DNA from: Olsenella sp. An188
Lineage (GTDB): Bacteria; Actinomycetota; Coriobacteriia; Coriobacteriales; Atopobiaceae
NCBI RefSeq assembly: GCF_002160255.1
Contig: NZ_NFKF01000002.1
Location: forward strand, 248,001 to 312,000
Length of the DNA stretch: 64,000 bases
Direction of reading: 5' to 3'
Of the stretch, positions 42,984-61,017 are shown piece after piece. The notes under the pieces were generated by a model. It was not told where the DNA came from. It did no database searches and saw only the letters and a program-made list of their open reading frames with translations. Positions within the stretch are counted from its first letter, which is position 1. Each line of letters begins with the position of its first letter. Made by a program: the position numbers and the translations under genes.

Positions 42984-42989
42984 CGCGCT

Positions 42990-43133
42990 GTCAGTTTCAG
43001 GGCGGGGTGAAAGTCCCCACTGGCGGTGACGGGAGGCGCGCGGCGCCGGGCCCGAAGTCCGCGACCCGCTAAAAAGGCGGCTGACCCGGTGAGACTCCGG
43101 GACCAACGGTTACAGTCCGGATGGAAGAAACGG
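42990..43133 (+). ncRNA. FMN riboswitch (RFN element)
   Basis: The conserved RFN blocks are present in order: CAGGGCGGGGTGAAAGTC, CCCACTGGCGGTGA, GCCCGAAGTCCGCGACCC, GGCTGACCCGGTGAGA, CTCCGGGACCAACGGTTACA and GTCCGGATGGAAGAAAC. GTTTC near 42994 closes the basal helix with GAAAC near 43127. FMN binding would reduce expression of the riboflavin importer. The riboswitch ends only about 10 bases before ribU, so control of ribosome access is more likely than a separate terminator. Confidence 0.95.
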
Positions 43134-43141
43134 AGGCCGTC

Positions 43142-46324: not shown

Positions 46325-47383
46325 TCACCGTCCATACCCCTCGAGCGGGGCTTCGTACGCCAGGCTCACGGTCGTCCCAACACGGACCTCCGTCCCGGGG
46401 TCGAGAGACATGCTCGTAACGCGCGGCTGGTTGACCATGGGCTTGTCAGGCACCCCCTGGTAGCTGGTAAAGGCCGGGTCGGGAACAAGCCCCGCGTCCT
46501 CAAGCGCGCGCGTTGCGTCAATGGGCGACATGTCATAGACGCTGGGCACCTCGGTGTCGCTTGTGACCGTGAGGTAGACGGTCGCGCCCTCGTAGAGGCT
46601 GTCCGGCAGCCGCGGGTCCCCGTCGGAGAGCGCCTCTGTGATGAGGCAGCGCTCGTCGTCCACGTCTCCCTCACGCGTGACTCGAACCTCAGCGACGCCG
46701 CCCTCCCGATAGCCTGCCACGACGTCGTCAAGGCTCACGATGCCGAGGGTGTGGGAGATGGCGGTCAGCTCACCGGGCGCAGCCTCCGCGGGGCCCGCCT
46801 GCTTGCCCGGCCACCACGCGGCGACGGCCAGGAGGATGAGGAGAATCGCAACCGACACGATTGCGAGGGTCCCACGGCGGCGCGCCTGACCGCGCGGGCG
46901 CTCCGGAGCGCCCTTCTCGCCTGATGCGAGAAGCCCCACGAGCTCGCCGCGTGAGTGAATGCCCAGCAGCCGGTAGCCGTTCGCGCGGGCCGAGCTGACC
47001 GTGCCCGGGGCAATCCCGAGCTCCCGGGCTATCTCCGCGGAGCTGTTCCCGGCAGCAACGAGCGCAAGGACGGATGCCTGCGTCTCGCTGAGTCCGCGGG
47101 CACGAAGCGTCTCTCGCCCCACGGGCCCGACCGAGGGGGAGGCCGCGGGGGCTCCGCACTTCTCGATGAGCTCGGAGGCGCCGGAGAGGCCCAGCTTGCG
47201 ATAGGCGTTCTGGCGCAGGCTCCCCACGGTCGAGGGGCTGATGCCCATGAGCGGCGCCGCCGCCTCCGCGGTCATGCCGGCCAGGACGGATCGAGCGGCA
47301 AGACGCTCGCGCTCGGTAAGGCCACGCTCGGCAAAGAACCGCTCTGCCTCGGGTGACGCCTTGGGGATGCGCTCCTCTGCCAT
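46325..47383 (-). CDS. Membrane-bound regulator: two LuxR-type HTHs, one TM helix, PASTA domain
   Basis: A 352-residue protein of unusual design. Residues 21-76 and 97-152 are each a LuxR/GerE helix-turn-helix (GLTERERLAARSVLAGMTAEA and GLSETQASVLALVAAGNSSAE). A basic stretch and one membrane helix follow (171-191). The outside part ends in a PASTA-like domain (279-345, PSVYDMSPIDATRALEDAGLV). PASTA domains bind muropeptides or beta-lactams in PknB and PBP2x. I infer a one-component sensor that links a cell-wall signal to transcription. ATG 47383 follows GGGAAGGGAGG. Targets are unknown; purL is divergent. Confidence 0.82.
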   Translation of the reverse strand: MAEERIPKASPEAERFFAERGLTERERLAARSVLAGMTAEAAAPLMGISPSTVGSLRQNAYRKLGLSGASELIEKCGAPAASPSVGPVGRETLRARGLSETQASVLALVAAGNSSAEIARELGIAPGTVSSARANGYRLLGIHSRGELVGLLASGEKGAPERPRGQARRRGTLAIVSVAILLILLAVAAWWPGKQAGPAEAAPGELTAISHTLGIVSLDDVVAGYREGGVAEVRVTREGDVDDERCLITEALSDGDPRLPDSLYEGATVYLTVTSDTEVPSVYDMSPIDATRALEDAGLVPDPAFTSYQGVPDKPMVNQPRVTSMSLDPGTEVRVGTTVSLAYEAPLEGYGR

Positions 47384-47587
47384 GCGTGCCTCCCTTCCCC
47401 GCCGTGCCTCGAGTATAGGGCGTGAGACGCCCCCGCCCGTGGCAACGCGCATATGAACCTCGTTTGCCATGCGCCCTACGGACACGGGAGGCGGGCGATG
47501 ACACGCGCCAGCCCCGCGAGCGGTAGCATTTTGCCGTAGAATGGTGGGACTAGTCGGCTTCCTCGGTATCTCAGGAGGTAACAGCGC

Positions 47588-60942: not shown

Positions 60943-61017
60943 TGGCAGGGGTAGTAGGATTCGAACCCACATTGATGGCACCAAAAACCACTGTCCTAAC
61001 CATTGGACGATACCCCT
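60943..61017 (-). tRNA. tRNA-Gln (anticodon UUG)
   Basis: The minus strand folds as a cloverleaf. AGGGGTA pairs with TACCCCT in the acceptor stem. The D arm is GTCC...GGAC, the anticodon loop TTTTGGT reads UUG, and the T loop is TTCGAAT. The discriminator is G and CCA is encoded. A TTTTT run follows directly after the tRNA. Confidence 0.93.

Follow-up and report, generated by a model that had tools for sequence, protein, structure and literature searches.

A membrane-tethered regulator of Olsenella sp. An188 joining two classes of LuxR-type HTH to a predicted outer PASTA domain, with a conserved candidate operator before its gene

The locus and the layout of the encoded protein

The window, which is the whole 64,000-nt stretch of Olsenella sp. 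An188 DNA that was analysed, carries on its minus strand a gene for which the ORF check placed the ATG at 47383 and the end of the stop codon at 46325. These are exactly the limits given by the preliminary description, made from the sequence letters, and the 352-aa product also has the two LuxR-type HTHs and the single membrane helix between HTHs and PASTA part that had been claimed there. The following features were assigned.

46325..47383, minus strand: coding sequence of the regulator (HTH-HTH-membrane helix-PASTA-like unit-PASTA), 352 aa
47389..47394, minus strand: Shine-Dalgarno-like GGGAGG 5' of the ATG, by sequence
47156..47323, minus strand: HTH1, GerE/LuxR type, class A (first-position class), aa 21-76, by Pfam and VIA
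46937..47104, minus strand: HTH2, GerE/LuxR type, class B (second-position class), aa 94-149, by Pfam and VIA
46817..46873, minus strand: single membrane helix, aa 171-189, with a basic stretch before it, by hydropathy
46562..46768, minus strand: first PASTA-like unit, degenerate, aa 206-274, by AlphaFold at low model confidence and by alignment with three-PASTA relatives, below the Pfam cut-off
46361..46552, minus strand: second PASTA domain, aa 278-341, by Pfam and fold match

The GerE family (PF00196) scored 76 bits over the whole protein against a cut-off of 23.5, in two stretches of which the best covers aa 98-149, and hydropathy gave one strong peak, at aa 171-189, directly after the basic stretch ERPRGQARRRG. 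Since the basic side of a membrane helix is cytoplasmic according to the positive-inside rule, this stretch would place the HTHs in the cytoplasm and the PASTA part outside, an orientation predicted from that rule only. No kinase domain appeared among the 23 Pfam rows for the protein, which sets it apart from PASTA kinases such as PknB/Stk1; the NCBIfam model PknB_PASTA_kin reached 21.3 bits against a cut-off of 450, and this match covers the helix and PASTA part only. A PDB sequence search with the whole protein returned only FixJ and a VqmA-type protein, both weakly. The AlphaFold model of the full protein (10 sequences) had a mean pLDDT of 68.2 and a pTM of 0.33, with confident HTHs and, at lower confidence, beta-alpha-beta units at 206-274 and 276-343; the low overall values mean that the spatial order of the domains is not predicted.

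Two other views of the locus were rejected. An 880-aa ORF proved to be a same-frame upstream read-through, whose extra part lies opposite purL, and the relatives start at the ATG that corresponds to 47383. As for a phage origin, a viral-contig scan gave 34 pattern stretches, none encoding a relative.

The PASTA ectodomain

Pfam placed PASTA (PF03793) in one stretch, aa 278-341, at 32.3 bits (E 9.7e-8, cut-off 23.2), and a genome-wide PASTA scan hit the identical place at 34.2 bits, together with two more loci in the same genome, one with four matches in a 704-aa frame on contig C13 and one with three in a 312-aa frame on C15. The ectodomain modelled alone had a pLDDT of 71.6 and a pTM of 0.62, and its top fold match was PASTA 2-4 of PknB (Foldseek E 1.0e-4). 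The PASTA part of S. aureus PBP1 (7o61) aligned with it at a VIA Z of 9.1 (rmsd 1.9, 58 aligned), the match covering positions 76-147 of the model, which are the second unit. A profile built from seven ectodomains likewise found PknB in the PDB, at E 4.3e-8. The second unit thus has both a score above the curated cut-off and a PASTA fold. The first unit (aa 206-274) lies under the Pfam cut-off and resembles PASTA by fold only, at low confidence. The ectodomain is therefore made of two PASTA-like units, the first degenerate. One external PASTA domain and a C-terminal region folding as PASTA had been expected beforehand; the domain at 278-341 stands and so does its fold, but it is preceded by a second unit that had not been foreseen and that does not reach the Pfam cut-off.

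Kinases and penicillin-binding proteins are the settings in which PASTA signalling is known. PMC5786024 and PMC6428115 report that the PASTA domains of PrkC and PknB bind wall fragments, and PMC6428115 proposes Ser556/Lys557 and Asn559/Gln560 as the residues of muropeptide binding in PknB. The stretch of our protein that aligns with this part of the PASTA3-4 linker does not conserve these SK/NQ residues, reading TVTSDTEVP against VSKGNQFVMP in PknB, and therefore a different ligand may be bound, or the PASTA part may only anchor the protein.

The same genome also encodes a PASTA lipoprotein without HTH, at C15:44446-45192 (locus L039, 2947-3693, minus strand). It has a Tat-like/lipobox start and lies between desulfoferrodoxin-like and nadE-like genes, and the best matches of its ectodomain were the ectodomains of HTH-PASTA proteins, at 38-43% identity. 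In genome G292, an HTH-PASTA gene adjoins the same gene group (L060).

Two classes of HTH domain in one chain

Both HTHs superposed well on LuxR-type DNA-binding domains. The region of HTH1 (aa 11-79) matched VpsT (VIA Z 8.8, rmsd 2.1, 66 aligned) and HTH2 matched StyR (Z 10.3, rmsd 1.9, 63 aligned) and NarL (Z 10.1), and the GerE-type HTHs match DNA-bound NarL and RcsB structures. The recognition-helix residues are unlike those of the NarL type, presumably giving the protein a specificity of its own.

To compare the two domains, we used 66 HTHs. Ten were single ones, and the rest came pairwise from 28 two-HTH membrane proteins, whose three layouts were HTH-HTH-helix, helix-HTH-HTH, and an arrangement in which an HTH stands inside the helices or at each of their ends. 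The tree needed two changes for first-position and one for second-position HTHs against a shuffled mean of 21.5, although the branch dividing A and B had a support of only 71/83, with few columns. By mean identity, with G297 added, same-position HTHs of other layouts were nearer than opposite-position ones for 29/29 first and 29/29 second HTHs, and nearer than the HTH's own partner for 29/29 first and 27/29 second HTHs. The sample is biased, its proteins being the top hits of a query holding both classes. Even so, an A/B pattern that crosses the layouts is hard to reconcile with separate recent duplications. The single HTHs of HTH-helix-PASTA proteins fell with the first class in the tree. The two classes are thus old ones, and they appear to have been kept as pairs with no recent duplication. 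Two different classes in one chain fit an asymmetric site read by one chain, and A and B presumably have different jobs on DNA.

The same A/B pair stands at the C-terminus of helix-HTH-HTH proteins from another family of the bacterial order (L023, L026, L029, L030). Polytopic membrane proteins with two LuxR-type HTHs were also seen, one of them in the same genome at C1:344168-345040 (L040) and others at L031, L033-L038, L043, L047 and L058; in all of these, one HTH is C-terminal and the other precedes the helices or sits between them, unlike the one-HTH DadR type described for Eggerthella lenta.

Distribution of the architecture and exchange of the outer part

We searched 296 Coriobacteriia genomes with the protein, and 31 genomes of the genus and 140 of the family with an 11-row profile. 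The closest relative, in G292, was 64% identical with the same layout. The profile found the HTH-HTH-membrane order in 9 of the 31 genus genomes and in at least 10 of the 140 Atopobiaceae genomes, giving at least 13 proteins; 7 of the 13 have a PASTA ectodomain. A scan of genome contigs gave 10 loci, all in Olsenella, Thermophilibacter or Atopobiaceae. The number of PASTA stretches varies, with one by Pfam in our protein and in G292 and three in L062, L063, L065 and L066; the ectodomain of L069 was assigned by alignment.

Four proteins (L061, L064, L067, L053) carry a different outer part, and Pfam gave no outer domain in the three of them that were scanned (L061, L064, L053). In the second HTH-HTH gene of G082 (L045/L068), the frame is broken about the helix, past the basic stretch that precedes it, and the gene may be a pseudogene. 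The G297 protein lacks PASTA and shows four peaks of hydropathy. Since those without PASTA carry another outer part or a broken frame, the outer part appears to have been exchanged. Other Atopobiaceae proteins (L018-L021, L024) have a PASTA-like stretch and a helix with only one HTH. The architecture is real, is conserved within one bacterial family and is a new combination of known parts; among the titles listed by a literature search with little coverage of subscription journals, none described PASTA joined to a LuxR-type or other HTH or a protein with two LuxR-type HTHs.

At L133 2653-3675 (minus strand), an HTH-HTH protein has about four membrane helices in place of the outer part, and a related promoter element lies before its gene. 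Small lipoprotein genes lie directly after or near the HTH-PASTA gene at L062 (6455-6988), L066 (6752-7312) and L069 (6755-7315). Their homologues occur in 14 of the 31 genus genomes at E 1e-3, some as short partial matches, and their best match in the genome of the window lies away from the regulator gene, at C1:365362-365871. The small lipoprotein gave no Pfam family (best E 0.14).

A conserved element in the promoter

Two further features lie upstream of the gene.

47439..47469, minus strand: candidate operator TGGCAA-N4-GGTTCATA-N6-TTGCCAC, conserved upstream of relatives
47412..47417, minus strand: -10-like box TATACT, by consensus only

The element is asymmetric, lies 21 nt before TATACT and was first spotted as a shared block in the 200 nt upstream of each gene. 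Our gene and those of G292 and G030 are 81-84% identical over its 31 nt, against 24-34% in the 100 nt before it. We then built a two-box matrix (GGTTCATA, 5-7 nt, TTGCCAC), trained leave-one-clade-out and compared with 6070 background windows from which known sites had been removed. With this matrix, 7 of 12 genes outscored all 6070 background windows, their sites lying 48-63 nt before the ATG. Matches were weak in the three paralogues G187b, G120b and G082b (score reached by 51/6070 background windows) and in G280 (173/6070), and no element was found in G187a, whose score was reached by 1143/6070. In G297, which was found later and stood outside the matrix, the best site of the 3513-nt locus is upstream, 95 nt from the ATG, with a score reached by 22/6760 background windows. 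In 11/12 genes the hexamer most like TATACT follows the block by 20-22 nt, with exact TATACT in 4/12; for the remaining gene, G120b, distances of 20 and 25 nt score equally.

A short pattern gave 7 hits in 6 of the 31 genus genomes, 6/7 of them before HTH-HTH genes, and a reversed control pattern gave none. As the pattern was drawn from those six promoters, six hits arise by design, and therefore only the near-absence of other sites is informative. A 19-base pattern allowing up to 3 mismatches hit one site in the genome of the window, the own promoter. Five places in the window matched GGTTCATA-N6-TTGCCA at the same tolerance, against 1.27 expected, and only the promoter one was free of mismatches. 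Because the genes next to it differ among relatives bearing the element, it travels with the HTH-HTH gene and not with the neighbours.

GerE HTHs are DNA-binding domains, and two good domains of this family together with a conserved upstream element make DNA binding by the pair likely. The earlier expectation that the HTHs are fit for DNA binding thus held for domain quality and for the upstream element, its test being passed in part only. The spacing bears on the sign of regulation: with 22 nt between TTGCCA and TATACT, the former is too distant to be a normal -35, and therefore activation of the own promoter appears likelier than repression. The preliminary description proposed that two HTHs in one chain could bind DNA without dimerising, but the inverted repeat TGGCAA...TTGCCA inside the element could also let two chains bind together, which suggests that a second chain may join at the inverted arm TGGCAA.

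That the element belongs to another regulator, the HTH-HTH-PASTA protein acting elsewhere, seems unlikely. It would explain why the element is weak or absent in G280 and G187a despite conserved HTHs, but a general regulator should have further sites, and the element stands before HTH-HTH genes in differing neighbourhoods and almost nowhere else in the 31 genomes; moreover, two paralogues of one genome (L066, L067) vary in HTH2 helix and element together. Another alternative starts from RodZ, a wall/shape protein in which a single membrane helix links an HTH to an outer part; a protein of this kind would have the HTHs bind proteins rather than DNA. We regard this as very improbable, given the match of the two GerE-type HTHs to DNA-bound NarL and RcsB structures and the conserved promoter element.

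Several further candidates were rejected. The looser pattern GGTKCATAN{4,7}TTGC gave two sites in the genome, near chance, one being the own promoter and the other an intergenic stretch that resembles a tRNA neighbourhood by eye, so that neither this pattern nor the 19-base one at up to 3 mismatches found a second target there. A second site in G259 lies inside a glycosyltransferase-like ORF, antisense. A regulon read from the neighbourhood was dropped because neighbours differ between relatives, and no target is named. Control of purL by the element is unlikely, because in relatives other genes lie upstream of the element, which still stands before the HTH gene.

Comparison with known systems

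CadC and ToxR are single-helix regulators that act from the membrane without phosphotransfer. Like them, our protein has an N-terminal cytoplasmic DNA-binding part (orientation by the positive-inside rule), a single helix and an outer sensor in one chain. The DNA-binding domain of CadC and ToxR is one winged HTH (Trans_reg_C type), in contrast to the two LuxR-type HTHs and outside PASTA here; they are proteobacterial and the present regulator is from Actinomycetota, and the searches made gave no sequence relation. With GerE in place of a winged HTH, it probably works like CadC but is no CadC-family member.

DadR, CadR and HcdR of Eggerthella lenta are described in PMC9734109 as LuxR regulators with 10-12 TM helices, acting as activators. 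They share with our protein the bacterial class and a LuxR-type HTH on a membrane protein, but theirs is one C-terminal HTH after 10-12 N-terminal membrane helices, whereas here an N-terminal double HTH is followed by one helix and an outside PASTA. The PASTA kinases PknB, PrkC and StkP resemble it in having a cytoplasmic effector, one helix and an outside PASTA, and the ectodomain matches PknB by sequence and fold; they differ in that the effector is a kinase instead of a DNA-binding pair, and in the ligand residues of PknB. The regulator therefore belongs neither to the PASTA kinases nor to the DadR type or the CadC family. Finally, RcsA-RcsB and BldM-WhiI are heterodimers of NarL-type regulators that set two different GerE HTHs on an asymmetric site, with the HTHs on separate chains there and both in one chain here.

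Proposed mode of action

We propose that the protein is probably a membrane-integrated one-component regulator, CadC/ToxR-like, acting on its own promoter, with PASTA as outside input or wall anchor. A single membrane helix would tether the class A and class B HTHs on the cytoplasmic side, with the two PASTA-like units standing in wall space. The A/B pair would read the asymmetric site, which lies immediately upstream of the own -35 element and partly takes its place, and possibly further targets. The outer domain would set whether or where this site is read, either by keeping the protein at wall material or through a bound ligand such as a wall fragment or wall protein.

The PASTA part of the same regulator might instead be only an anchor or docking site, for example for the C15 PASTA lipoprotein or a PBP, and no wall-fragment receptor. 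We consider this a real possibility, if somewhat short of an even one. The genome does encode an HTH-free lipoprotein whose ectodomain is of the regulator's kind (L039), PknB-type ligand residues are missing, and ectodomains have been swapped for non-PASTA ones while the HTH pair and element stay; on the other hand, binding of wall fragments has been reported for PrkC and PknB PASTA (PMC5786024 and PMC6428115), and ligand sites vary from kinase to kinase.

Going further than the proposed one-component regulator, we tentatively put forward a direct wall-to-gene switch, which is rather doubtful at present. Here the A and B HTHs would form a built-in heterodimer on an asymmetric self-owned operator, and the outer module would have been swapped in evolution, the alternatives being differing counts of PASTA units, a helix bundle or another small domain. 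PASTA wired straight to DNA-binding domains would let the wall state set the transcription of one promoter without a kinase cascade, and the dedicated promoter element makes this idea testable. If it is true, the same A/B pair in other membrane layouts of Coriobacteriia would point to a general design in which one constant two-key reader of DNA is combined with sensors that can be exchanged. The pairing of HTH classes in one chain also suggests how membrane-tied LuxR-type regulators, numerous in Coriobacteriia, may gain specificity.

Elsewhere in the window, we noted an FMN riboswitch at 42989-43136 (plus strand, 102 bits) ahead of apparent ECF transporter genes, and a tRNA-Gln(TTG) at 60943-61017 (minus strand).
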